64,000 bases of DNA from Mesorhizobium loti (GTDB taxonomy: Bacteria > Pseudomonadota > Alphaproteobacteria > Rhizobiales > Rhizobiaceae): NCBI GenBank assembly GCA_014189435.1, contig CP050293.1, forward strand, positions 5,895,001 through 5,959,000, written 5' to 3'. The position numbers were made by a program, and so were the translations under genes. This document shows, in pieces, positions 35,396-51,694 of the stretch (the stretch's first letter is position 1; every line of letters begins with the position of its first letter). The notes beneath the pieces are model-generated. The model was not told the origin of the DNA. It worked only from the letters and a program-made list of their open reading frames with translations, and ran no database searches.

Positions 35396-35445
35396 GCGGC
35401 GCACAGGTCCCGGCATTCACAGGAATGCCGCGGACCGCGCGCCGC
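35396..35445 (-). terminator. large stem-loop between binding-protein and permease genes
   Basis: Nested inverted repeats: GCGGCGC/GCGCCGC outside, GGTCC/GGACC in the middle and GGCATTC/GAATGCC around an ACAG loop. No T tract follows on the minus strand, so it is more likely an mRNA-stabilising or attenuating hairpin than a strong terminator. Confidence 0.7.
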
Positions 35446-35460
35446 AGGGGGGAGGATGGC

Positions 35461-36732
35461 TTATTTCTTCACCAGCTCGTTGGCATAGGCTTCGAGCTCG
35501 TTGAGGCCGCCCTTGACGTCGGTGCGGGTGCCGGTGACCAGTTCCTCGAGGATGATGCCCCAGCGGTCGCCAAGATCCGGCCAGCGCGGATCCTGCCAGA
35601 AGTTGACCGCCGTGACCTTGCCTGTCTCGGCCAGCGCCTGGCCGAGATCGGCGCCGTAAATGTCGGCGAATTCCTTGCTGGACAGGATGCTGGTGCGGTT
35701 CAGCTCACCGAACTGGTGGGCGTCGAGCCGGCGCTTCTCGTTTTCCTTCGATGTCGCCCACGCGATGAACAGGCCGGCGCATTTCTTCGAGGCATCGTCG
35801 GCATTGGCCTTTGCCGCGATGGCGAGGCCATGGCCATAGCCACCGCCGGTGAGCGGCGCCGGCGGCGGCAGGAAGCCGATCTTGCCGACCACCTGCGAGG
35901 TCTTCGGATCGACCGCCATGCCCGACAGAGGCGTCGATTCAACGAGGATGGCGACCTGGCCCGACAGGAAGGCGCCGGTCGATTCATCCCAACTGCCGGT
36001 CTGCGTGCCGGGCGCGGAATCCTTGAACAGCTTCAGGTAGGTTTCGGTCGCCTTGACGGCGGCATCCGAGTTGAAGGCCGGCTTGTCGCCATCGAACCAC
36101 TGGCCGCCATAGGCCTTGAAGAACGGCATCCAGCGCCAGACATTGGCGCCCGAACCGCGTGCGCCGCGCAGCGCGATGCCGTAGATGCCCTTGTCCGGAT
36201 TGGTCAGCTTCGGCACGTCGGCGATCAGTTCGTCCAGCGTCTTCGGCGGTTGGATGCCGGCTGCCTCCAGAATATCCTTGCGGTAGACCATCAGGTCGCC
36301 GCCGCCGGTCAGCGGCGCGAACCAGACCTTGCCGTCATAGGTGGCGACCTTCTGGCGGCCCGGATCGAAATCGGCATAGTCGTAGTCCGCCGGATAGTAG
36401 TCGGTGAGCGGCACGATCCATTTCGACGAGGCAAACAGCGCCACGTTGGCTTCATCGACATAGTAGACGTTGTAGTTGCCGACGGTGGACGCATCGGCGC
36501 GCGATTTCGCCCGGCGGTCGTTCTCATTGAGATAATCGATCTGAAAACTGGCGCCGGAGAGCTTCTGGAACTCGGCCTTGGAGTCCTCCAGAAGCGTCAG
36601 GCCGTCGCGTGGCTGCGCCAGCACCTTGACCGGCGCCGAGCAGACCGGCGCCTGCGCCAGGGCGATGGTGGAAACGGTAGCGGAAAGCATAAAAGCTGCG
36701 CCAAGGCTGGCAGCAAGCCGAATTGGTTTCAT
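35461..36732 (-). CDS. sugar ABC transporter substrate-binding protein
   Basis: 423 residues, family 1 solute-binding protein. Signal peptide about 1-26 (STIALA end). The segments GGGDLMVYRKDILEAAGIQPP and FLSGQVAILVESTPLSGMAV are typical of polyol/sugar binders. GGAGGAGAAAG precedes ATG 36732. First gene of the operon; the AraC regulator gene lies just upstream in the same direction. The neighbouring dehydrogenase suggests a sugar alcohol ligand. Confidence 0.87.
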   Translation of the reverse strand: MKPIRLAASLGAAFMLSATVSTIALAQAPVCSAPVKVLAQPRDGLTLLEDSKAEFQKLSGASFQIDYLNENDRRAKSRADASTVGNYNVYYVDEANVALFASSKWIVPLTDYYPADYDYADFDPGRQKVATYDGKVWFAPLTGGGDLMVYRKDILEAAGIQPPKTLDELIADVPKLTNPDKGIYGIALRGARGSGANVWRWMPFFKAYGGQWFDGDKPAFNSDAAVKATETYLKLFKDSAPGTQTGSWDESTGAFLSGQVAILVESTPLSGMAVDPKTSQVVGKIGFLPPPAPLTGGGYGHGLAIAAKANADDASKKCAGLFIAWATSKENEKRRLDAHQFGELNRTSILSSKEFADIYGADLGQALAETGKVTAVNFWQDPRWPDLGDRWGIILEELVTGTRTDVKGGLNELEAYANELVKK

Positions 36733-36972
36733 GATCTTTCTCCTCCAGGAACATTTCGCAGAAAGCGGAAGTCCTCGGGTTACGCGATCCTCACCATCGC
36801 CCGAGTGACGTGCCACCCATCGCCAAGATGCGGAGTTGCAGCGGGCCACGCTAGAAGCCCCGTTGCAGCAGACCTGTACTTTTATGCATTGTGCAGCGCA
36901 AAAACCGGCGCTCGAATACAGCGCCCGTCACGTGAGTATCGATCGAGCTTGAAACGGTGGTTTAGGACACGC

Positions 36973-37890
36973 CTATGCGCGCAATGTCAGCCGCTGTCGC
37001 GACAGCCGCCGATAGGACGATGGCGTCATCCGATGCTTGCGCATGAAGGCACGGTTGAAGTTCGAGATGTTCATGTAGCCGACCTGAAAACAGATGTCGG
37101 TGATCGGAACGTCGGTGTCCGCCAAGAGCTTGCAGGCTTGCCAGAGCCTGAGCTTGGCAAGGTGGTCGCTAAAGCTGTTGCCGGTGTTCTTCCGGAAGAA
37201 CCGCGAAAACGTGCTCTCCGTCATGCCGGCCAGTTCCGCCACTTCAGGCAGTTTCAGATCCTCAGCGAAATGCTGGAACAAATAGGTCAGCGTGCGCTGG
37301 ATGATGTCGAGCGAAGCGGCATCGAGAACCGGCGAGAAATCCGGTGACGACAGTAATTCATATTCGTCGGTCCTGGCGAGAAGATCGACGAGGTTCAGGA
37401 ACAGGCAGAACCTGCTTAGCCCGCTAACTTCACCCATCCGCTCCATCAGCTCGGCGCCTTCCAGCGCGGCCTGGCCGTGAAAGACCATGCCGCGCAGCGA
37501 GCGTTCGAGGAACGGTTCCAGTTCGCGCAATTCCGGCAGCAGGCCCGCCGACCCCCGCAGCCTCTGCGCATCGAACTGCAGGACGATGTCGCGGCCTTCG
37601 ATCAGCTCTCCTGACTGTACCGCGGTCACCCAATCATGCGGCAGACCGCCACCGACGATGGTCAGATAGCCCGGTCCGAACTCGCCGATGTGATCGCCGA
37701 CCAGCACCACACCGGAGGATTTTCGCAGCAGATGGATCTCGTATTCCGGATGAAAGTTCCAGACATTGCGCTCCCACGGGTAGTCGTCGAGCCGCCACAG
37801 GAAACTGTCGCTCGCTTCGGTGACGATGTGCTCGAAGGACGGCGCTGTCCGCGGGATCGCGGCCGTGTTCTTTCTGCGCCTGAACTGCAT
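36973..37890 (-). CDS. AraC-family transcriptional regulator
   Basis: 305 residues from the ATG with AGGAGG four bases upstream (37890). An N-terminal cupin-like effector domain (NFHPEYEIHLLRKSSGVVLVGDHIGEF) is followed by two helix-turn-helix motifs near the C-terminus (LPEVAELAGMTESTFSRFFR and ITDICFQVGYMNISNFNRAF). Likely activates the adjacent sugar ABC operon, from which it is separated by 240 bases. That gap holds no gene but contains TGCATTGTGCA (36885-36895), a possible site. Confidence 0.88.
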   Translation of the reverse strand: MQFRRRKNTAAIPRTAPSFEHIVTEASDSFLWRLDDYPWERNVWNFHPEYEIHLLRKSSGVVLVGDHIGEFGPGYLTIVGGGLPHDWVTAVQSGELIEGRDIVLQFDAQRLRGSAGLLPELRELEPFLERSLRGMVFHGQAALEGAELMERMGEVSGLSRFCLFLNLVDLLARTDEYELLSSPDFSPVLDAASLDIIQRTLTYLFQHFAEDLKLPEVAELAGMTESTFSRFFRKNTGNSFSDHLAKLRLWQACKLLADTDVPITDICFQVGYMNISNFNRAFMRKHRMTPSSYRRLSRQRLTLRA

Positions 37891-39661: not shown

Positions 39662-40243
39662 TCAGAATGTCGGCGGCGTGTTGACCCAGAGGATACGGAC
39701 CGTGGTCGAACCGATATTGCGGTAGCCGTGGCCGAGTTCGGAGTTGAAATAGAACGCGTCGCCGGCATCGAGCGCCACCACGTTCGCCTCGACCAGCAAC
39801 TCGACAGAACCTTCGAGCACGTAGCCGAATTCCTGCCCCTTATGGCTGATCAACTCGAGGCTGCCGCCACCGGCCTCGATCACGTGGATGTTGATCTGCA
39901 GCAGATATTCCGGGCCGGATGGCACCAATTGCTCGAGCACGACATGGTTGCCCGAACGCCGGTGTCCCGTCTCCATGTGCTGACGCTCGTTTTGTCGCAA
40001 CACGAACACTTCCGAGGCATTGTGCTGTAGCGTGCCGAACATCGCGTTCATGTTGATGCCCAGCGCCTGCACCAGCCGGTGCAGAGCCGCCATCGAGGGC
40101 GTCGCGCGGTCGTTCTCAATCTTCGAGAGATAACCTTCTGTTAGCCCGATGCGGGCGCCGAGCTCCTCCAGACTGAGGCCAAGCACTTGTCTGGCATGGC
40201 GCAGCTTGACGCCGATCCTCGGGGTTCCGTTTCTATCGCGCAT
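39662..40243 (-). CDS. XRE-cupin transcriptional regulator
   Basis: 193 residues. HTH_3 domain at about 10-66 (LRHARQVLGLSLEELGARIG, YLSKIENDRATPSM) and a C-terminal cupin (about 115-190, GQEFGYVLEGSVELLVEANV, LDAGDAFYFNSELGHGYRN). Such regulators usually control a neighbouring catabolic operon and sense a small ligand in the cupin. It starts 1 nt after the stop of the PLP-enzyme gene, so it is the last gene of the eight-gene unit that begins at livG. Confidence 0.88.
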   Translation of the reverse strand: MRDRNGTPRIGVKLRHARQVLGLSLEELGARIGLTEGYLSKIENDRATPSMAALHRLVQALGINMNAMFGTLQHNASEVFVLRQNERQHMETGHRRSGNHVVLEQLVPSGPEYLLQINIHVIEAGGGSLELISHKGQEFGYVLEGSVELLVEANVVALDAGDAFYFNSELGHGYRNIGSTTVRILWVNTPPTF

Positions 40244-40244
40244 G

Positions 40245-41501
40245 TCAGATCCGCATCTTCATCCAGTCCGCCAGCTTCGCCAACAGGAAATCGACTTCCG
40301 CCTCGGTATTATAATGGGCCAACCCTATGCGCACGACGCCGTTGCGGTCCGCAAGCCCCAGCCGCTTGATTGGCTCCAAACCGTAATTGTGGCCGTGCCA
40401 GAGATAGATGCCTTCTTTTGCCATTGCCTTGGCGATGTCGGCGGGATCGGTCCCGTCGACGGTGATCGACACGGTCGGAACCCGGCGCGCCTGCGCCGCC
40501 GCATCGGTTATACCCTGGATGACGACGCCATCAATTCTGGACAGTCCGGCAATCAGCCGTGCTGTCAGGACGCGCTCATAACGGTCAGCGACTTCAATGC
40601 CGGCGACGATGCGCTCACGCCGCGTCGCCTGCGGGTGGATATTGCCGAAGGACTGTCCGAGCCAGGCATAGTGCTCGACCGCGCCAAGCACCCCGGCAAG
40701 CGCCTCGCGGCTAGTCGTCCCCGTCTCGAATTTTCCAGGTGGCGTGTTCGAAGCCGCGCGCACCTTATAGGCGGTCAGCGCCTGCAGCAGATCGAACCGG
40801 CCCCACAACACCCCGTGATGCGGTCCGAAAAATTTGTAGGCCGAGCAGACCAGGAAATCACAGCCAATCTCCTGGACGTCGATCACCCCATGCGGCGCGA
40901 ACTGCACCGCGTCGATATAGCTCAGCGCCCCGACCGCGCGTGCGCGCTGCGCGATCCGCTTCACATCGTTGATCGTGCCGGTAACGTTGCTGGCATACCC
41001 GACAGCGACCAGCTTGACCTCCTCGTCGATAGTCGCCTCCAGCGTCGACAGGTTGAGTTCGAACGTTTTTGGATCAAGGTCGATCCAGCGCACTTCAAGC
41101 CCCCGGTCCTCCGCCAGCATCAGCCAGGGTGCGACGTTGGCGTCATGATCCATGCGCGTCAGCACGATGGCGTCGCCGGCGTTCAGATCGCGGCCGATGG
41201 CGCGCGAGACGGCGAAAGTCAGAGTCGTCATGTTCTGGCCGAACACCACCTCACGCCGGTCCGCGGCATTGAAGAAATCGGCCATCGCTTGATGCGCGTC
41301 GTCGACCATCGCCTGGGCCGCAAGTGAGGTTTCGAAATAGCCACCGAGATTGGCGTTGGTCTCGATCATGGCACGCGTCATACGCTCGATCGATCGGCTC
41401 GCCATCTGGGTTCCCGCGGGATTGTCAAAGAAAATCCGCTGCTTCGGCGCGGCACCTCTCGCCATCGCCGGAAAAGCATCGCGGACTGTGTCTATATCCA
41501 T
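40245..41501 (-). CDS. class V PLP-dependent enzyme, cysteine-desulfurase-like but lacking the catalytic Cys
   Basis: 418 residues, fold type I. Seen: Asp197-Ala-Val-Gln200, His204 and the PLP lysine Lys223 in CSAYKFFGPHHG. The position of the persulfide-forming cysteine loop of NifS/SufS (RTGHHC) reads LWHGHNYGLEPIKRLGL, with no Cys, and the only cysteines are 214 and 219. It matches the VC1184-type group often labelled cysteine desulfurase-like. It is more likely an aminotransferase or beta-lyase for an unknown amino compound. Embedded with an amino-acid-type ABC importer and a cyclase-family hydrolase. Confidence 0.83.
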   Translation of the reverse strand: MDIDTVRDAFPAMARGAAPKQRIFFDNPAGTQMASRSIERMTRAMIETNANLGGYFETSLAAQAMVDDAHQAMADFFNAADRREVVFGQNMTTLTFAVSRAIGRDLNAGDAIVLTRMDHDANVAPWLMLAEDRGLEVRWIDLDPKTFELNLSTLEATIDEEVKLVAVGYASNVTGTINDVKRIAQRARAVGALSYIDAVQFAPHGVIDVQEIGCDFLVCSAYKFFGPHHGVLWGRFDLLQALTAYKVRAASNTPPGKFETGTTSREALAGVLGAVEHYAWLGQSFGNIHPQATRRERIVAGIEVADRYERVLTARLIAGLSRIDGVVIQGITDAAAQARRVPTVSITVDGTDPADIAKAMAKEGIYLWHGHNYGLEPIKRLGLADRNGVVRIGLAHYNTEAEVDFLLAKLADWMKMRI

Positions 41502-41530
41502 GTCTGAATTCCGTGTCTGATGATCGTTGT

Positions 41531-41552
41531 GCGGCGGTCCCTAGACCGCCGC
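41531..41552 (-). promoter_or_regulatory. perfect hairpin between cyclase and PLP-enzyme genes
   Basis: GCGGCGGTC-CCTA-GACCGCCGC: a 9-bp perfect stem with a four-base loop, inside the operon, without a T tract. Candidate attenuator or mRNA-processing site. Confidence 0.6.
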
Positions 41553-41571
41553 CAGCTGCGGTTTCAGGCGT

Positions 41572-42336
41572 TCAGCTGGCCGCTTCATGGATCGCGACAG
41601 CGCGGGCTGGAAAGCCGGACCCGGCCTTTGGCTTTGGCCAGCTTGCCATTATCAACGCTCCGGCTTCGGGCACCTTGTCGAGATTGGCCAAGAGCTCGAT
41701 CTGCCAGCAGTCGCGGGACAGCACATAGTATTCCAGGCTTGCATCGCCTGCCGAAGTGGCGCGGCCGGGATCGGTGTCCATGCCCTCGTGCCCGATCGCA
41801 GTGACGCCGCGGCGTTCCAAAAGCTCCTCCAGCACCGGCTTCGACCAGCCCGGTGCATGCGAGATACCGTCGGGCGACTTGTTCTGAAACGTCTCGGGGT
41901 CTGGCCAGCGCGGCCACCACCCGGTGCGAAGCGCGACAAAACACTTCTCCGGGATACGGCCGTTCCGGGTCTCCCAGGCGGAAATGTCGTCCAGCGTCGG
42001 CGTCGCGTCGGGATCGGCGGCGACCCTGTCGCTGATGTCGAGGATGACTAGCGGCAGAAGCATCTCCGACACCGGCAGTTGGTCGATCGAGCGGCCGCCG
42101 TCAATGAAATGCACCGGCGGGTCGACATGGGTGCCCCATTGCCCGACGAAGGCGTAGTGGTGGACCTGGAAGGCGTCGCCCTTCGAAAAATCGAGCAACG
42201 CACCACGCTCCTCGTCCGGGAAGGCCGGGAAATGCGGCTGGCCCGGATGAAAGGCATGCGTCAGGTCGGTGAAGGTCGCGGCGGAGAGCCGCGACCTGTA
42301 GATGTCCCAAAGCGAACCCGGAATGGACAAGATCAC
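41572..42336 (-). CDS. cyclase-family metal-dependent hydrolase (kynurenine formamidase-like)
   Basis: 254 residues of the cyclase/KynB/isatin-hydrolase fold, metal enzymes that hydrolyse amides or lactams of small cyclic or aryl compounds. The metal motif reads GQWGTHVDPPVHF: the Gly-Thr-His-x-Asp core and the downstream His are kept, but the first His of the usual HxGTHxD is Gln. Further motifs: VALRTGWW and GHEGMDTDPG. It overlaps the binding-protein gene by 4 nt, so import and hydrolysis of the same compound are likely coupled. Substrate unknown. Confidence 0.83.
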   Translation of the reverse strand: MILSIPGSLWDIYRSRLSAATFTDLTHAFHPGQPHFPAFPDEERGALLDFSKGDAFQVHHYAFVGQWGTHVDPPVHFIDGGRSIDQLPVSEMLLPLVILDISDRVAADPDATPTLDDISAWETRNGRIPEKCFVALRTGWWPRWPDPETFQNKSPDGISHAPGWSKPVLEELLERRGVTAIGHEGMDTDPGRATSAGDASLEYYVLSRDCWQIELLANLDKVPEAGALIMASWPKPKAGSGFPARAVAIHEAAS

Positions 42337-43511
42337 GGCTCGGCGACGAAGGTCGGTGCCGCTTCACTTGCCAGGACAAGCTTGCCGTCCTTGACACTGA
42401 TGACCGAGACCGACTTGTCCGGCACAGAAATGCCCGGACGGTAGGTGATCGTGCCGGTCACGCCGTCGAGCCCGGACGTGGCGGCCAGCGCGTCGCGGAT
42501 CTTGGCCGGATCCGGCGCGCCGGCGCGCTTGATTGCGTCGGCCATCAGCTTGACCGAGTCGTAGCCGAGCGCAGCGAAGGCGTTCTCCGGGGCATTGCCG
42601 ACCGACTTGGTGTAGGCGTCGATGAAGGCCTGCACCTTCGGGGTGGCGCCCTCACCGATATAGGCGTGGGTGGTGAAGTAGGTGTCCTTGGCCGCGTCGC
42701 CGCCGACCTGGATCAGCAAGGGCGTGTCGTAGCCGTCGCCGCCGACCACCGGCAGGTTGATGCCGGCCTGGCGCATCTGCTTCAAGATCAGGCCGATTTC
42801 CTCGGCATTCGACGAGGCATAGACGAAGTCAGGCTGCGGCGACAGCGCCTTCAGTTTGGCGATCTGGGCGGTAAAGGTCTTGTCGCCGATCTTGTAAGTG
42901 TCGCGCTCCAAAATCTTGCCCCCGCCATGCTCGTAGGCGGTGACGAAGTAGTCCGACAGCAGCGTTGTGTATTCGGTGCCGATGTCGGTCAGCAGGTAGG
43001 CCGTCTTGCCGTTCAGCTTGTTCAGCGCAAATTCCGCGCCAACCGCAGCCTGAACGTTGTCGCCGAAAGCGGCGAGGAAGATCTCGTTACCGAGCTGGCT
43101 CGGCAATTTCGGCGAGGTCGCGCCGGGCGTGATGAATGGTATCTGCGCCTTCTGGACCTGCGGTCCGATGGCCAGCACCGAGTCGGAATCGGCGAAGCCG
43201 ATGATGCCGACGACCTTGTCGCTGTCGATCAACTGGCTGGCGACGGTCGAGATCGTCGTCGAATCGCTCTTGGAGTCGTAGACTACCAGTTCTATCTGCT
43301 GGCCGAGCACGCCGCCGGCGGCGTTGATTTGGCTTGCTGCCAGCTTGGCGCCATTCAGCATCGGACCGTCGAGCGAGGCCTGAATGCCGGTCAGGTTTGC
43401 CGGATAGCCAATCTTGATCGTGTCGGCAGCAAGTGCCGTGCTGGCCGAGGCAAGCGCGAAGAATGCGCCCAGTCCCAGGCCGATGGTGCCGCGTCGAGTG
43501 AGTTTGATCAT
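42333..43511 (-). CDS. branched-chain-amino-acid-type ABC transporter substrate-binding protein
   Basis: 392 residues, LivK/type I periplasmic binding fold. Signal peptide about 1-28, with TRRGTIGLG near the start, a possible Tat motif. Typical segments: GPMLNGAKLAASQINAAGGVLGQQIEL, ITPGATSPKLPSQ and FAALGYDSVKLMADAIKRAG. These proteins bind amino acids, amides or aromatic acids. It overlaps livM and the cyclase gene by four bases each. Confidence 0.88.
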   Translation of the reverse strand: MIKLTRRGTIGLGLGAFFALASASTALAADTIKIGYPANLTGIQASLDGPMLNGAKLAASQINAAGGVLGQQIELVVYDSKSDSTTISTVASQLIDSDKVVGIIGFADSDSVLAIGPQVQKAQIPFITPGATSPKLPSQLGNEIFLAAFGDNVQAAVGAEFALNKLNGKTAYLLTDIGTEYTTLLSDYFVTAYEHGGGKILERDTYKIGDKTFTAQIAKLKALSPQPDFVYASSNAEEIGLILKQMRQAGINLPVVGGDGYDTPLLIQVGGDAAKDTYFTTHAYIGEGATPKVQAFIDAYTKSVGNAPENAFAALGYDSVKLMADAIKRAGAPDPAKIRDALAATSGLDGVTGTITYRPGISVPDKSVSVISVKDGKLVLASEAAPTFVAEP

Positions 43512-44557
43512 CGTTTTCGTTCCTCTGTCTGGTTCACCTTTGCCGATCCTTGGGTTAATCCGAACGTAAGCTCCCGGTCCCCCATGATCCCCTTCGGCCG
43601 GAAGATCATGATTAGAATGAAGATGAAGCCGAGCACGATCTGGCTGGCGCCAAACAGGGCTGGCACAGCGAAATCGCCGATCGTGAAGCCGCGTTCGACC
43701 GAGCGCAAAACCTCCGACAACAGCGAAACGCAGATGACGCCGACCAGCGCGCCGGTCAGGGAGCCCATGCCGCCCAGCACCAGCATGGTGATCAGGCTCA
43801 TCGTCAGCGCGAAGTAAAAGGTGTTTGGCGAAAACGAGCCGAGATAATGCGCGTAGAGCGACCCGCCGACCCCTGAGAAGAAAGCACCGATGACGAAGGC
43901 GATCAGCCTGGTCCGCAGCACGCCGATACCGACGGCGCTGGCCGCGATGGTGTCGTCGCGCACCGCCTTCATGGCGCGTCCGAAAGGCGAATAGACCAGG
44001 CGCGCCAGCACGAACAGCGTGATGGCCAGCCAACCCATCACCCAGGGCAACGTCGTCTCCAGCGGCACGCCGGTGAAAGTGCGGGCGCCTCGGGTGAAAT
44101 CCGACGCATTGATCAGCACCACGTTGACGATAATCAAGAATCCCATCGTCGCCACCGAAACGAAATAGCCCGACAGGCGCATCAAGGGATAACCGACGAC
44201 CACCGCAAGCAGCGCGGTCAGAAGACCTGCCACCAGCGTCGCCGGCAGGAAGGGGAGGCTGAAAGCATGCAGAAACGTCGGCAGATGCGGCAGCAATGCC
44301 ATCTTCTGCTGCACCGGGATCGACAGGATCCCCGAAATATACGCGCCGGCGCCGATGAATCCGACATGACCGAGCGAAAACACGCCCGTAAAACCGTTGC
44401 TCAGCGACAGCGCCAGCACCAGGATCGCATTCAGCGCGATCAGCAGGATAATCCGGACGAAATAGTCGCTCAGCACGTGCGGCGCACCGAAAGCGACGAC
44501 TGCTCCCGCCACCAGGGCGACGAAGACCAGGAGTGTGATCCGCGCTTCCCGGCTCAC
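43508..44557 (-). CDS. livM: branched-chain-type ABC transporter permease LivM-like
   Basis: 349 residues with about 8-10 hydrophobic helices; the FSLGHVGFIGAGAY and RDDTIAASAVGIGVLRTRLIAF segments are LivM hallmarks. GTG start at 44557 overlaps the livH stop (GTGA). The operon symbol is structural; the substrate may not be a branched-chain amino acid. Confidence 0.87.
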   Translation of the reverse strand: MSREARITLLVFVALVAGAVVAFGAPHVLSDYFVRIILLIALNAILVLALSLSNGFTGVFSLGHVGFIGAGAYISGILSIPVQQKMALLPHLPTFLHAFSLPFLPATLVAGLLTALLAVVVGYPLMRLSGYFVSVATMGFLIIVNVVLINASDFTRGARTFTGVPLETTLPWVMGWLAITLFVLARLVYSPFGRAMKAVRDDTIAASAVGIGVLRTRLIAFVIGAFFSGVGGSLYAHYLGSFSPNTFYFALTMSLITMLVLGGMGSLTGALVGVICVSLLSEVLRSVERGFTIGDFAVPALFGASQIVLGFIFILIMIFRPKGIMGDRELTFGLTQGSAKVNQTEERKR

Positions 44558-45456
44558 AGCTTTATCTCCCGGTTTGGCTGGAGCAGCCCGCCCGGGCGCA
44601 CCAGTAGAAAGGCGATCAGCACGGCGAAGACGATTGCGTCGCGATAGGACGAGACGCTGCTCGGCAGGAATGCGACGATGAAGATCTCCAGCGCGCCCAA
44701 TATGTAACCGCCGACCAGGGCGCCCGCGATCGACCCGAAGCCGCCGATGATCGCCGCCACGAAAGCCTTCAGGAGCGGCGTGAAGCCCATCTGCGGCTGC
44801 ACCACGCCGGCCTGTGCCGCCCACAGAATGCCGGCGAGGCCGGCATAGGCGGATGCGACGATGAAGGCGACGATGATCAGCCGGTTGACGTTGAGTCCGA
44901 CAAGATGTGCCGCCGACATGTCCTCGGCTGCGGCGCGCATGCCGAGCCCAGTCGTGGTGCGCGTGATGAACCAGCCGAGGAGCAGCAGCGACACGAAGGT
45001 CAGCGCGATGGTCAGGAGATTGATGCTGGTGAAGGTGATGGCGCCGTTCGACACTTCCCAGGAGGTGTTGAGAATATCGGGGAGTGGAAAATTGCGCGGC
45101 GAGGAGGTGAACACCAGGATGCCGACGTTCTCGATGATGTAGGTGACGGCCAGGCTTGTCAGCAGTCGCGCGACGTCGGGCGCGTCGCGGATCGGACGAT
45201 AGGCGATGCGTTCGATGAGGAAGCCCGCGATGGCGGCCGCAGCGATGCCGCAGATCACGGCGACCGGGAACGGAACACCGATGCCGACCAGCAAGGCAAC
45301 CCCGAAGGCGCCTACCATCATGACGTCGCCATGCGCGAAATTGGTCAGCTTGAGGACGCCGAAGACGATCGACAGACCGACCGCCACCAGTGCGTAGAGG
45401 CTGCCTAGGCTCACCGCGTTGACGATCTGCTGCAGGATATAGTCCAGCTTGGTCAT
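44554..45456 (-). CDS. livH: branched-chain-type ABC transporter permease LivH-like
   Basis: 300 residues, about eight hydrophobic helices; LVAVGLSIVFGVLKLTNFAHGD and GFGSIAGALVGGYILGALEI are LivH signatures. It overlaps livF and livM by four bases each, so translation of the set is coupled. Confidence 0.88.
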   Translation of the reverse strand: MTKLDYILQQIVNAVSLGSLYALVAVGLSIVFGVLKLTNFAHGDVMMVGAFGVALLVGIGVPFPVAVICGIAAAAIAGFLIERIAYRPIRDAPDVARLLTSLAVTYIIENVGILVFTSSPRNFPLPDILNTSWEVSNGAITFTSINLLTIALTFVSLLLLGWFITRTTTGLGMRAAAEDMSAAHLVGLNVNRLIIVAFIVASAYAGLAGILWAAQAGVVQPQMGFTPLLKAFVAAIIGGFGSIAGALVGGYILGALEIFIVAFLPSSVSSYRDAIVFAVLIAFLLVRPGGLLQPNREIKL

Positions 45457-46184
45457 GTTGCCGCCCCGAGATATGCCTGCGCCACGCGTTCGCTGTCGCG
45501 CAGTTCCGCGGACCGGCCCGAAAGCGCCACCTGACCCGTGCGCAGCACATAGGCGCGGTCGGCGAGATCCAGGGCAAGCGTGATGTTCTGTTCCACCAGC
45601 AGCATCGTCATGCCCTGGCGCTTGAGTTCGGCAAGCGCGCTGAAGATGTGGCGTACCAGCAGCGGCGCAACGCCGAGCGAAGGCTCGTCGAGCAGCAGCA
45701 GGCGCGGCGCCGCCATCAGCGCACGCGCCAGGGCAAGCTGCTGCTGTTCGCCGCCCGACAGCGTGCCGGCCAGCTGCTTCAGCCTTTGCTTGAGAATCGG
45801 GAACAGCGTGAACATGCGCTCGCTGTCTCTAGCGACGGCCTCCTTGTCGGTGCGGGTGCAGGCGCCGAGTCGCAGATTGTCGGCTACCGTCAGGCCGCCG
45901 AACAGGCGCCTGCCCTCCGGGCTCTGCGCGATGCCCAGACCTACGATCCGCGACGGGGCGATACCTCCAATCGGCTTGCCATCGAAGATGATCTTGCCGC
46001 TGCGCGGCCGCGACAGACCGGAAATGGTGCGCAAGGTCGTGCTCTTGCCGGCGCCGTTGGCCCCCACCAGTGCCACCACCTCGCCGGCATGGACGTCGAG
46101 CGAAATGCCCTTCAGCGCACGCACCGCGCCGAAATTGACCTCGAGGTTCTCGACGCTGAGCAAAACGGGGCTAGGCGTGGCCAA
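45453..46184 (-). CDS. livF: branched-chain-type ABC transporter ATPase LivF-like
   Basis: 243 residues. Walker A GANGAGKST, signature LSGGEQQQL, Walker B LLLLDEPSLGVAP. The APLLV motif after Walker B is typical of LivF. Starts with TTG (46184) and overlaps livG by 14 nt. Confidence 0.9.
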   Translation of the reverse strand: MATPSPVLLSVENLEVNFGAVRALKGISLDVHAGEVVALVGANGAGKSTTLRTISGLSRPRSGKIIFDGKPIGGIAPSRIVGLGIAQSPEGRRLFGGLTVADNLRLGACTRTDKEAVARDSERMFTLFPILKQRLKQLAGTLSGGEQQQLALARALMAAPRLLLLDEPSLGVAPLLVRHIFSALAELKRQGMTMLLVEQNITLALDLADRAYVLRTGQVALSGRSAELRDSERVAQAYLGAAT

Positions 46185-47004
46185 GATACGCCTCCCGCAC
46201 TTTCGGGTGTTCGCGTACCTGCTCCGGTGTTCCGACGCAGATCACCTCGCCAGTCGCCAGCACCTGGATGCGTTCGCACAGCGCCATGATCAGGTCCATG
46301 TCGTGCTCGACAACGACCACGGTTACGCCGTAGCGGTCACGGATCGTCCGGATCAGCGTTGCCAACACCTTGGTCTCGTTGGAATCAAGCCCGGCTGCGG
46401 GCTCGTCGAGCAGCAGCAGCTGCGGGCCGGTCGCGAGCGCTCGCGCAATCTCCAGCCGCCGCTGATCGCCGTAAGGAAGATCCGCGGCGGTCCTGCCGGC
46501 CTGCGCTGTCAGGCCCATGAGGTCGAGGAGTTCGTCGGCCTTCCGCTGCGTCGCGGCCACCCGCTCGCGATAGCGCTGACCGCGCAGCACGGTATCGGCG
46601 GGGCCGACAGGATGGCGCAGCTGCGCCGCCGTCAGCACGTTCTGTGCGACGCTGAGGCTGCCGAACAGGCGAGAACCCTGGAAGGTGCGGGCGATGCCCA
46701 TCGCGACGATCTGCGATGTGCGCAGGCCGACGATCGAACGGCCCTTCATCTCGATGCTACCGGAATTCGGCTGGGAGAAGCCGGTGATCAGGTTGAAAAG
46801 CGTGCTCTTGCCCGAGCCATTCGGGCCGATCACCCCAACGATTTCACCTTCGTGGAGCTCGATGGAATGATCCCGCAGGGCAACCAGCCCTCGGAAGGCT
46901 TTTGTCAGCCCAACCGTCCTCAACAGCACTCGACTCGACTGTCTATCCACGCGCCGGTTTGCCCCCTGTCCGCCCTCGCCGCCCCGTTCGGCCCGGTCAA
47001 GCAA
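46171..47004 (-). CDS. livG: branched-chain-type ABC transporter ATPase LivG-like
   Basis: Up to 277 residues. Walker A GPNGSGKST, Q-loop GIARTFQGSRLFG, degenerate signature LPYGDQRRL, Walker B LLLLDEPAAGLD, all typical of LivG. The true start is uncertain: the TTG at 47004 has no clear Shine-Dalgarno, and the conserved part begins at about residue 26 (GTG 46929). First gene of the eight-gene unit. Confidence 0.87.
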   Translation of the reverse strand: MLDRAERGGEGGQGANRRVDRQSSRVLLRTVGLTKAFRGLVALRDHSIELHEGEIVGVIGPNGSGKSTLFNLITGFSQPNSGSIEMKGRSIVGLRTSQIVAMGIARTFQGSRLFGSLSVAQNVLTAAQLRHPVGPADTVLRGQRYRERVAATQRKADELLDLMGLTAQAGRTAADLPYGDQRRLEIARALATGPQLLLLDEPAAGLDSNETKVLATLIRTIRDRYGVTVVVVEHDMDLIMALCERIQVLATGEVICVGTPEQVREHPKVREAYLGHA

Positions 47005-47294
47005 CGAATGGACAATTCGAACGGCAAGATGTCAAGGCCTATTCCCAACAGGAAAGCTATATGCCTACCTCGGCTCGACCGTTGCCGCGACAGCACCGGC
47101 ATCGATGCAGCGCCACGCCCCAAACCGACTTCACGATCGCGCCGGAGATCGATGCAATGAGCCGTGTCCCGAGATTGGCTTCAAGTTCGGCGACGTTCTT
47201 GCTGATCGCGAAAGCAGAGAGACCGAGCCGTTGTCTGGTTGCATTGGTTTAGCTCCGCCATGTAAGGAACTCGGAAGCCGGAGGCCGCACGCTA
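47005..47294. other. divergent gap between livG and the methyltransferase gene
   Basis: 290 bases with no gene I believe in. Promoters for livG (minus) and the methyltransferase (plus) must lie here. GGAGG sits about ten bases before ATG 47295. Confidence 0.4.
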
Positions 47295-50251: not shown

Positions 50252-51694
50252 TTATCCGAGTTTCGCCAGCTTTGCGGCCTGACGAATGGCCTCGACGGCA
50301 TCTGGGTTGGTCACGGGGTAGCCGGCGATGAAGCGTTCGACCGAAAACTCCGGGAACTCGGTCTGCAACCGGGCCGCTAACCCGGCCGCCTCCAAGGCCT
50401 CGCCAACCGCCGCATGCGCCAGCGCCAGGAACATGATCACATTGGGAGAATCCAGCGCTCCCCTGCGTAGCGATGCGATGGCCTCACGATGCCTGCCGGC
50501 GGCGAACTGGATGCGGCCCTGCATGCGGAAATACCAAGACGGCGCCAGCGGATTCAGGAGCATGGCGCGCTCGATGAGCGGCATCGCTTCGGCCGGATCG
50601 CCAGCAACCAGCGCCTTGCTGCCGGCCAGCAGCGCCAGCGTGTCGGCGTGATTGGAGCCATATTCGAAGGCGCGGCGATACGCGCGCTCCGCTCCTTCGA
50701 AGTCGCCGAGACATCCCCTGAGATCACCAAGGCAATTGCAGGCAGCACTGTCCATCGGATCAAGCAACATCGCGTTTTCAACCGATGCCCGCCACTTCTC
50801 GATCGAGCCCTGCGCATCGTCGCTGAAGCCCTGGCAGGCCTCCATCGAATAGGCATAGGCAAGCTGGGTCCAGGCCCTGACCAAGGTGGGGTCAAGCTCC
50901 AGCGCGCGTGAAAACAGGCGAATCGCTTCGGCAATGCCGGCGCGGCTAAAGGTGTCTTGCCGTTCAACACCAAGCAGATAAAGATCATAGGCGCGCAGAC
51001 TAGCGGGCGGCTTGCGGCGGATCGCATTGCGGCCGACCGTGGCGAGCGCTCCGTGGCTGCCGGCGATCACGTTGATGACGCTCTCGGTCAGACTATCCTG
51101 CAGCGTGAAAATGTCCTCGACGGGGCGGTCATAGCGCTCGCTCCACAGGCTGACGCCGTTGCCTGCGTCGGCAAGCTCGATCGTTAGCCTGACCCGCCGG
51201 TCGTCGGCGCGCAGCTGGCCCGAGACGATATACGTGGCGCCCAGCGCCTTGCCATCGGCAACGAAATCGGCGGGTGCGCTGCCGAGCGACTTCATGGTGT
51301 GGAAGGCGATGACCGGCAGATCGGCATAGCGCGCGAGATCGATGCTGATGTCCGACGACAGGCCGTCGGCGAAGCGGCGCCAGCGTTCCTCGCCGCTCAG
51401 GCATTCGATCGGAAACATGGCGAGCACCGGCGAGGCATCGGCCAGCGAGGGTGCCAGCACGGCGCGTGCGGCGCCATTGATGTGCGAGGCAAGCGCGATC
51501 TTGTTGTTGACGCCGAGCTTCTCGTAAATCGCGGCGAGATGGGTGCGGACGGTCGACGGCGCGATGAACAGCGCCTCGCCGATCTCGCGATAGGTCAGGC
51601 CCGAGGCAAATCTTTCCGCCACCGCGCGCTCGCGGCCCGATAGCGCGTCAGCCGGTGAAGACGTCGCGGGGCGGTCCATAAAGGTCCCTGTCAT
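50252..51694 (-). CDS. regulator with N-terminal LuxR-type HTH and C-terminal TPR region
   Basis: 480 residues. HTH at about 18-75 (LSGRERAVAERFASGLTYRE, IAPSTVRTHLAAIYEKLGVN), then a TolB-like/adenylate-cyclase-associated alpha-beta domain (about 90-210, GLSSDISIDLARYADLPVIA, YIVSGQLRADDRRVRLTIEL) and several TPR-like helical repeats (about 225-440). LuxR helix-turn-helix domains are normally C-terminal, so this order is unusual. Effector unknown. Divergent to the DUF1127 gene at 51847. Confidence 0.83.
   Translation of the reverse strand: MTGTFMDRPATSSPADALSGRERAVAERFASGLTYREIGEALFIAPSTVRTHLAAIYEKLGVNNKIALASHINGAARAVLAPSLADASPVLAMFPIECLSGEERWRRFADGLSSDISIDLARYADLPVIAFHTMKSLGSAPADFVADGKALGATYIVSGQLRADDRRVRLTIELADAGNGVSLWSERYDRPVEDIFTLQDSLTESVINVIAGSHGALATVGRNAIRRKPPASLRAYDLYLLGVERQDTFSRAGIAEAIRLFSRALELDPTLVRAWTQLAYAYSMEACQGFSDDAQGSIEKWRASVENAMLLDPMDSAACNCLGDLRGCLGDFEGAERAYRRAFEYGSNHADTLALLAGSKALVAGDPAEAMPLIERAMLLNPLAPSWYFRMQGRIQFAAGRHREAIASLRRGALDSPNVIMFLALAHAAVGEALEAAGLAARLQTEFPEFSVERFIAGYPVTNPDAVEAIRQAAKLAKLG

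Follow-up and report, generated by a model that had tools for sequence, protein, structure and literature searches.

Several described systems resemble, in one component or another, the locus analysed here, an eight-gene operon in a 64,000-nucleotide stretch of the Mesorhizobium loti genome (contig CP050293.1, positions 5,895,001 to 5,959,000; hereafter the window), which we tentatively, and with less than even confidence, read as an operon that regulates itself and scavenges an amino compound of the homoserine type. The statements from the literature given here and below refer to excerpts of the cited papers. Among the cyclase-fold hydrolases (PF04199), isatin hydrolase A coordinates its metal with His73 and Asp75, uses His79 as the shuttle residue, and has the further site residues His69, His207 and Gln219 and a GLQC/GLAS motif (PMC6117287), while the kynurenine formamidase KynB is characterized by the signature His50, His54, Asp56, His60, His161 and Glu173 (PMC4243253). 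MGS0169, a metal-stimulated (Mn) esterase, has glutamine at the position of the first motif histidine, and trans-dienelactone hydrolase shares this modified motif (PMC5341072). The pyridoxal-phosphate (PLP) enzyme Fgm3 from the fusaoctaxin biosynthesis of Fusarium cleaves the Cβ–Cγ bond of 4-hydroxy-arginine to yield L-alanine, in a pathway that also holds a metal-dependent hydrolase, Fgm2 (PMC10967133). Finally, soil Arthrobacter and Burkholderia have been reported to grow on homoserine lactone as a carbon and nitrogen source (Yang et al. 2006, described in PMC5474475), although the excerpt of PMC5474475 names no gene for this growth. Our literature searches on VC1184/TIGR01976, this gene combination, S-methylmethionine hydrolase and combinations of homoserine lactone, homoserine dehydrogenase and cyclase gave no pertinent paper among those listed.

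The operon occupies the minus strand of the window from about 46950 down to 39662 (the source genome comprises 8.33 Mb in three contigs). In the order of transcription, it includes genes for a livG-like ATPase (46171..46950; Pfam PF00005/PF12399), a livF-like ATPase (45453..46184; PF00005), a livH-like permease (44554..45456; PF02653), a livM-like permease (43508..44557; PF02653), a Liv/HAAT-type periplasmic binding protein (42333..43511; PF13458), a cyclase-fold metal hydrolase (41572..42336; PF04199), a class V PLP enzyme (40245..41501) and an XRE-cupin regulator (39662..40243; HTH_31/HTH_3 and Cupin_2), all eight frames being open and belonging to the expected families. Adjacent genes overlap by 4 nt at four of the seven junctions (livF/livH, livH/livM, livM/binding protein, binding protein/cyclase), a start of livF at TTG 46184 would give it a 14-nt overlap with livG, and the spacing is 70 nt between the cyclase and PLP genes and 1 nt between the PLP and XRE-cupin genes. 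The initial annotation, made from the sequence of the window, had described a coupled unit of eight genes running in one direction and ending in the XRE-cupin gene 1 nt after the PLP gene, and this is confirmed. The span that it gave (39662..47004) holds for the gene set and order, but not for the start of livG. This is probably GTG 46950 instead of TTG 47004, as the longer frame is interrupted by a difference of one base immediately upstream, where the window has five G and the related loci L009 and L120 have four.

The cassette is conserved. All eight genes are present at 95–99% identity in L009, L010 and L120 (here and below, L numbers denote the loci fetched for comparison), hence four Mesorhizobium genomes, including the source genome, carry it intact. 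The importer, cyclase, PLP and XRE genes are also found once in Rhizobium CB3060 and twice in Rhizobium etli Mim1, one copy being located on pRetMim1c and the other on the symbiosis plasmid pRetMim1e (the roles of these plasmids are treated in PMC4125696). In Rhizobium, the genes form two divergent arms, the importer, binding protein and cyclase in one, and an aldehyde dehydrogenase (ALDH), an M20 hydrolase, the XRE-cupin regulator (62–63% identical to that of the window) and the PLP enzyme in the other. The R. altiplani locus (L049) has the same arrangement up to the contig end, right after the binding protein, the cyclase region lying beyond the contig edge. The four Rhizobium loci (L134, L135, L136, L049) represent three strains. 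The context counts given below rest on a Python gene caller and a context matrix tallying whole loci; the caller overlooks two cyclase genes (L134, L135) and one livF (L136), which are present by annotation and tblastn.

The recorded sources of strains Mim1 and CB3060 are mimosoid legumes, Mimosa affinis and Leucaena (a small sample). Catabolism of mimosine, prompted by these sources, was considered and not adopted, because no mid/pyd genes were found in strain Mim1 according to the excerpt of PMC4125696, and because the importer and cyclase also occur together in Kaistia, Labrys, Deinococcus and Meiothermus.

The importer has the composition expected of the Liv/HAAT class, with two ATPases, two PF02653 permeases and one PF13458 binder. 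The binding protein scores 135.1 bits with the model of the LivJ/LivK high-affinity branched-chain binders (NF011933), below the cut-off of 477. Its Ser109, Thr132 and acidic Asp259 align with the ligand-site residues Ser79, Thr102 and Glu226 of the leucine-binding protein, and Asn235 replaces Tyr202 of the latter, which fits an amino-acid-like ligand.

A survey of the order (297 genomes) gave seven carriers of the cyclase (E ≤ 1e-50) and eight of the binding protein (E ≤ 1e-110). The two genes are adjacent in all seven cyclase carriers, and the PLP gene stands beside the cyclase in three of these seven. The source genome was the only carrier of the cyclase (E ≤ 1e-60) among 247 genomes of its own family, and the only carrier of the binding protein (E ≤ 1e-110) among 337 genomes of the class sample. 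The operon of Kaistia and Labrys consists of genes for an RpiR regulator, a glutamine synthetase (GS)-like protein, a formylglutamase (FGase), an isochorismatase, the importer, the binding protein and the cyclase (L155 and L011 are one contig, counted once). A binding protein with 81–82% identity was found in five of the 28 genomes of the Kaistia family; for Labrys the count is four of five. The PLP gene follows the cyclase in four of the five Kaistia carriers, without the XRE gene, while no PLP gene (E ≤ 1e-140) was detected anywhere in the four cyclase-bearing Labrys genomes (4/4; in one of these, L115, the contig ends 1.6 kb past the cyclase). On plasmids of Deinococcus and Meiothermus, the importer, binding protein and cyclase are accompanied by GS-like and amidohydrolase genes, and neither the PLP nor the XRE gene is present. 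Two importer relatives (L139, L154) have the isochorismatase/GS/FGase set without the cyclase. Among 80 loci with PLP relatives, any other cassette gene at the cassette-level identity is found in five (L009–L012, L049), and the remaining 75 have no such partner, many contigs being short. Hence the importer and the cyclase form a stable core, and the PLP and XRE genes are accessory to it, since the cores of Labrys, Deinococcus and Meiothermus lack both and only five of the 80 PLP-relative loci have cassette partners. Genome G061 (L121) has the PLP, ALDH, M20 and XRE genes with a different importer and no cyclase; thus, these four genes make a separate module. The co-occurrence of cyclase, PLP and XRE-cupin genes across genomes, suggested as a check in the initial annotation, is therefore seen for all three genes in Mesorhizobium and Rhizobium, is reduced to the cyclase–PLP pair in Kaistia, and does not extend to the other three genera.

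The cyclase shares the fold and the GTHxDxxxH core with isatin hydrolase A and kynurenine formamidase, and its His70, Asp72, His76 and Asp189 correspond to His73, Asp75, His79 and Asp193 of isatin hydrolase A. In contrast, the first metal histidine (His69) is replaced with Gln66, the general-base or second-site histidine (His207) with Glu202, Gln219 with Glu214, and the GLQC/GLAS motif with QIEL; the pairing of His207 with Glu202 comes from an ungapped count, a larger alignment placing Glu202 one column off. Mapped through isatin hydrolase A, the positions of His50 and His161 of KynB are taken by Gln66 and Glu202. The six residues of the resulting site (Gln66-His70-Asp72-His76 ... Glu202 ... 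Glu214) are identical in all 121 sequences compared (the window cyclase and the best 120 of 3278 matches), with Asp189 kept in 120 of them, and the same six are retained in all 33 locus cyclases checked, which had been located by a motif already containing Gln66, His70 and Asp72 (0/33 failed it). An AlphaFold2 model (predicted local distance difference test, pLDDT, 81.8; below 50 at residues 34–48 and 53–65) has 8f9x and isatin hydrolase A as its top matches, KynB ranking lower. The 5ibz structures, which we take to represent MGS0169, match it at 14–15% identity, and this distant protein differs in having a second glutamine where the window cyclase has His70. As judged from these residues, the cyclase is neither a kynurenine formamidase nor an isatin hydrolase and would constitute a distinct subfamily.

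Cyclase relatives with 42–43% identity are also carried by 23 plasmid records of lactic acid bacteria, several of them from kimchi or sauerkraut; on a Lactiplantibacillus plantarum plasmid (L146, 1-10696) such a gene (43%) follows those of an amino-acid permease and a MetE-like methyltransferase. A 44% relative on a Staphylococcus epidermidis plasmid (L147) has an IS257 transposase close by and tet(K) in the wider vicinity; the subfamily therefore travels on mobile DNA.

The PLP enzyme belongs to the cysteine desulfurase-like family TIGR01976 (VC1184; 483.5 bits, curated cut-off 352.35), and not to the SufS desulfurases (223.8 bits versus 475.1). It retains Lys223, His119 and Arg391, the last one at the position that binds the substrate carboxylate in desulfurases. 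The initial annotation had called this enzyme Cys-less, which is correct for the C-terminal stretch IYLWHGHNYGLEP, where desulfurases carry the catalytic cysteine, but not for the entire protein, as Cys214 and Cys219 are present just before the Schiff-base Lys223 (there is none after residue 219). The best match among the solved structures is Fgm3 (E = 2.4e-52), with the Schiff-base lysine and the PLP-stacking histidine aligned, although Fgm3 is fungal and biosynthetic, and has no importer or regulator of this kind. In a quick LG+G4 tree of 45 sequences picked from 143, the PLP enzymes of the Rhizobium cassettes do not share a clade with their Mesorhizobium and Kaistia counterparts, and forcing together 12 rows (10 cassette enzymes, a group defined by gene context, and the near relatives P0002 and P0004) costs 130 log units (approximately unbiased test, p = 3.3e-69). 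The Mesorhizobium and Kaistia copies are also separated in the drawn tree, the forks nearby being open. Thus the PLP gene probably joined the cassette more than once, and such recurrent pairing with this importer and cyclase speaks for functional coupling; alternatively, there may have been a single ancient association, followed by losses and transfers.

Relatives of this enzyme are encountered in other contexts as well. The source genome has a 54% identical paralogue (G000:C1:3051318-3052526; L124) adjoining an aldo-keto reductase gene, and similar Mesorhizobium copies with 51–54% identity make up 18 of the 80 PLP-relative loci. A 46% relative in Rhizobium CIAT894 (L144, 5879-9233) lies beside an arginase-family gene and a creatininase gene, which recalls the guanidino chemistry of Fgm3. 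We set aside gamma-hydroxy-arginine or -citrulline as the specific substrate: it is compatible with Fgm3 and the neighbours in L144, and has no support in the cassette itself.

The candidate substrate of the cyclase comes from Actinobacteria, where orthologues (E ≤ 1e-75) were found in three of 198 genomes phylum-wide, six of 144 in the family of genome G894 and seven of 140 in the genus of genome G909, probably Streptomyces (these three samples overlap), as well as on two plasmids. They are 62–68% identical to the window cyclase and retain all site residues at 15 of 15 loci checked. In all six carriers of the G894 family, genes for homoserine dehydrogenase, ALDH and an S-methylmethionine-permease-like protein lie within about 9.6 kb of the cyclase, and aspartate ammonia-lyase is also nearby in four of the six, in at least three gene arrangements; the reference sequences for these neighbours were taken from L164, one of the six carriers, and L140. 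Homoserine dehydrogenase was verified at L164, L140 and L177 (452, 441 and 442 bits; NCBIfam cut-off 373). All four neighbour genes are present on the Streptomyces plasmid L140, and only the permease on the Arthrobacter plasmid L145. The set reads as a route from homoserine through aspartate semialdehyde and aspartate to fumarate, and if so, the hydrolase should deliver homoserine. The presence of the cyclase on L145 and on relatives of this plasmid also recalls the Arthrobacter growing on homoserine lactone, a link that is our inference. A protein of about 150 amino acids (p150) is encoded near the actinobacterial cyclase in 11 loci (L140, L145, L162–L164, L175–L180); its tested members match no Pfam or NCBIfam family, and one of them, compared with PDB, had no meaningful match.

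The last line of evidence concerns regulation. The pattern CTWTCCT-N5-GAAT is found on the minus strand at 47041..47056 (CTTTCCTGTTGGGAAT, with a TTCC-N5-GGAA dyad), five bases upstream of TTGACA, a candidate -35 box of the operon (47030..47035, minus strand) that is kept in L009 and L120. The same pattern occurs at the importer promoters of L009, L010 and L120, and two inverted copies, one per arm, are found in each of L134, L135, L136 and L049, one copy in L135 having G at position 4. With G allowed at this position, the 2.37 Mb of fetched loci contain 15 matches, 11 of them at these promoters and four elsewhere (L067, L074, L078, L158), while the ten loci with RpiR-type regulators (L011, L114–L118, L155–L158) have none, except for the one in L158, far from the promoter. 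When the 170-nt upstream region was resampled with a first-order Markov model, the strict pattern appeared in 10 of 200000 samples; this figure is a guide rather than a clean test, since the pattern was first noticed by comparing the window with R. etli. These observations support self-regulation, as the initial annotation had supposed, in which the XRE-cupin protein would act on the predicted operator at 47041–47056. The XRE-cupin protein itself is below the PuuR cut-off (NF007408; 78.7 versus 211 bits). Together with a PuuC-like ALDH (L049) and a PuuA-like GS (Labrys) in related clusters, it resembles the Puu/Pau gamma-glutamyl polyamine pathway, but each of these relatives scores below its curated cut-off, and the sole annotated PuuD-family gene is separated from the CB3060 cluster by about 11 kb. 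A 55% relative of the regulator is carried, in another gene context, by a plasmid of an Acaciella isolate.

We tentatively propose the following scheme. The Liv-type importer would take up a molecule with a free alpha-amino group. The cyclase, given its actinobacterial neighbours, would open a gamma-lactone or ester, yielding homoserine or another gamma-hydroxy-alpha-amino acid, with homoserine lactone as the first substrate candidate. The PLP enzyme, by analogy with Fgm3, could then cut the Cβ–Cγ bond by retro-aldol cleavage to alanine and an aldehyde (formaldehyde in the case of homoserine), and the XRE-cupin protein would sense the ligand or product and control the operon via the 47041–47056 site. 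Conservation of the cassette, adjacency of the cyclase and the binding protein, the homoserine neighbourhood, the kinship with Fgm3, cassette PLP enzymes from more than one clade, the operator-like site and the esterase precedent (MGS0169) for glutamine at the first motif histidine are counted in favour of this scheme. The general idea of the initial annotation is thus supported in part: a hydrolase stands beside an importer for an amino compound, and the PLP enzyme is closest to a C–C-cleaving lyase.

A number of observations weigh against the homoserine scheme. It offers no role for the GS-like, FGase and isochorismatase genes preceding the Kaistia and Labrys importer, nor for the GS and amidohydrolase of Deinococcus and Meiothermus, and the M20 hydrolase (the L049 copy was tested) resembles N-carbamoyl hydrolases. 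The proposed base of Fgm3 is tyrosine, whereas the corresponding residue, mapped by alignment only, is Phe225 in the window enzyme and tyrosine in that of Kaistia. The homoserine dehydrogenase, permease and ALDH neighbours are present in just one of the seven carriers of the G909 genus, three others having only regulators (plus p150 in two of these three) and the remaining three none of the genes sought; no homoserine dehydrogenase stands beside the rhizobial cyclases in the loci of the context matrix; and the actinobacterial permease is below the S-methylmethionine-permease cut-off (598–615 versus 716 bits). Finally, the operator-like site was absent from L121 and from L141–L143, the latter having more distant XRE relatives, and XRE relatives with 46–55% identity occur in other gene contexts.

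A cyclic ureide as the substrate is a serious rival, which we nevertheless consider unlikely and do not prefer (allantoin-type degradation included). In this case, the cyclase would convert a hydantoin- or dihydropyrimidine-like amino compound into a ring-opened N-carbamoyl compound, the amine would be freed by a decarbamoylase (in Rhizobium the M20 enzyme, in Kaistia and Labrys the isochorismatase), and GS-like glutamylation or the PLP enzyme would follow. Indeed, two unrelated families closest to N-carbamoyl/ureido models adjoin the same importer and cyclase: the M20 hydrolase of L049, 93% identical to the R. etli copy, is above the TIGR01879 hydantoinase/carbamoylase cut-off (417.8 versus 204), and the Labrys isochorismatase is nearest to the BiuH (71 bits) and RutB (60 bits) models without reaching either cut-off, its solved matches including biuret hydrolase and N-carbamoylsarcosine amidohydrolase. 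However, the Mesorhizobium operon has no decarbamoylase, the isochorismatase/GS/FGase set also occurs without the cyclase (L139, L154), and the homoserine-dehydrogenase neighbourhood of Actinobacteria is left unaccounted for. Hydantoin, one of the compounds suggested in the initial annotation, may still be considered in view of the nearby N-carbamoyl-hydrolase-like genes, but the actinobacterial neighbourhood points to homoserine.

The same neighbourhood admits another, improbable, explanation, that the cyclase acts on S-methylmethionine, or on homoserine lactone formed from it, to yield homoserine and dimethyl sulfide, the importer taking up plant S-methylmethionine. The actinobacterial permease is nearest to the S-methylmethionine permease model by more than 200 bits in the four copies tested, and the L146 relative adjoins the permease and MetE-like genes mentioned above. 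On the other hand, the actinobacterial permease does not reach the equivalog cut-off, the cyclase fold is known for hydrolysis of acyl C–N and C–O bonds, and the enzyme of lactic acid bacteria is only 43% identical, its permease not being S-methylmethionine-like (50 bits). A tryptophan-type route, with hydrolysis of N-formyl-kynurenine or isatin followed by kynureninase-like cleavage, is very improbable: it would agree with the fold, a weak arylformamidase match (TIGR03035; 21.4 bits versus 223) and the kynurenine formamidase label given to many cyclase relatives by JGI, but we rejected this chemistry, and with it the formyl-kynurenine, kynurenine and isatin named in the initial annotation, because both KynB-specific histidines are changed and the isatin-hydrolase motif is replaced throughout the 121 sequences (signatures from PMC6117287 and PMC4243253). 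That the operon is a simple leucine-type importer with unrelated enzyme genes nearby is hardly credible, since the binding protein, although within the branched-chain family, is under the binder cut-off (135 versus 477), the cyclase adjoins it in seven of its eight carriers among the 297 genomes, and the importer and cyclase are together in Deinococcota too.

Outside the operon, a convergent gene of a MatE transporter lies beyond the end of the XRE-cupin gene. At 35425-37347 of the window, opposite a minus-strand gene for a sugar-type binding protein (35461-36690), there is a 640-aa open frame that has no Pfam match and is probably spurious. At 50252-51694, a gene for a LuxR-type (GerE) regulator with fused TPR repeats adjoins an O-methyltransferase gene.

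Returning to the preferred homoserine scheme, the conserved hydrolase, whose metal site is distinctive and whose gene lies near homoserine dehydrogenase, is a direct candidate for a gene of homoserine-lactone breakdown, and in rhizobia it is joined by a PLP enzyme, maybe a new homoserine-cleaving lyase. A bolder form of this scheme, which we regard as decidedly unlikely, is that the cyclase subfamily is a so far unassigned homoserine-lactone hydrolase in bacteria of soil and roots, and that the rhizobial operons scavenge by lactone opening, M20 deacylation (in R. etli), PLP cleavage to alanine and formaldehyde, and aldehyde oxidation; if true, recycling of the carbon and nitrogen of quorum signals would sit on a symbiosis plasmid. 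The homoserine assignment, if true, would also correct the automatic kynurenine formamidase label on many relatives of the cyclase.

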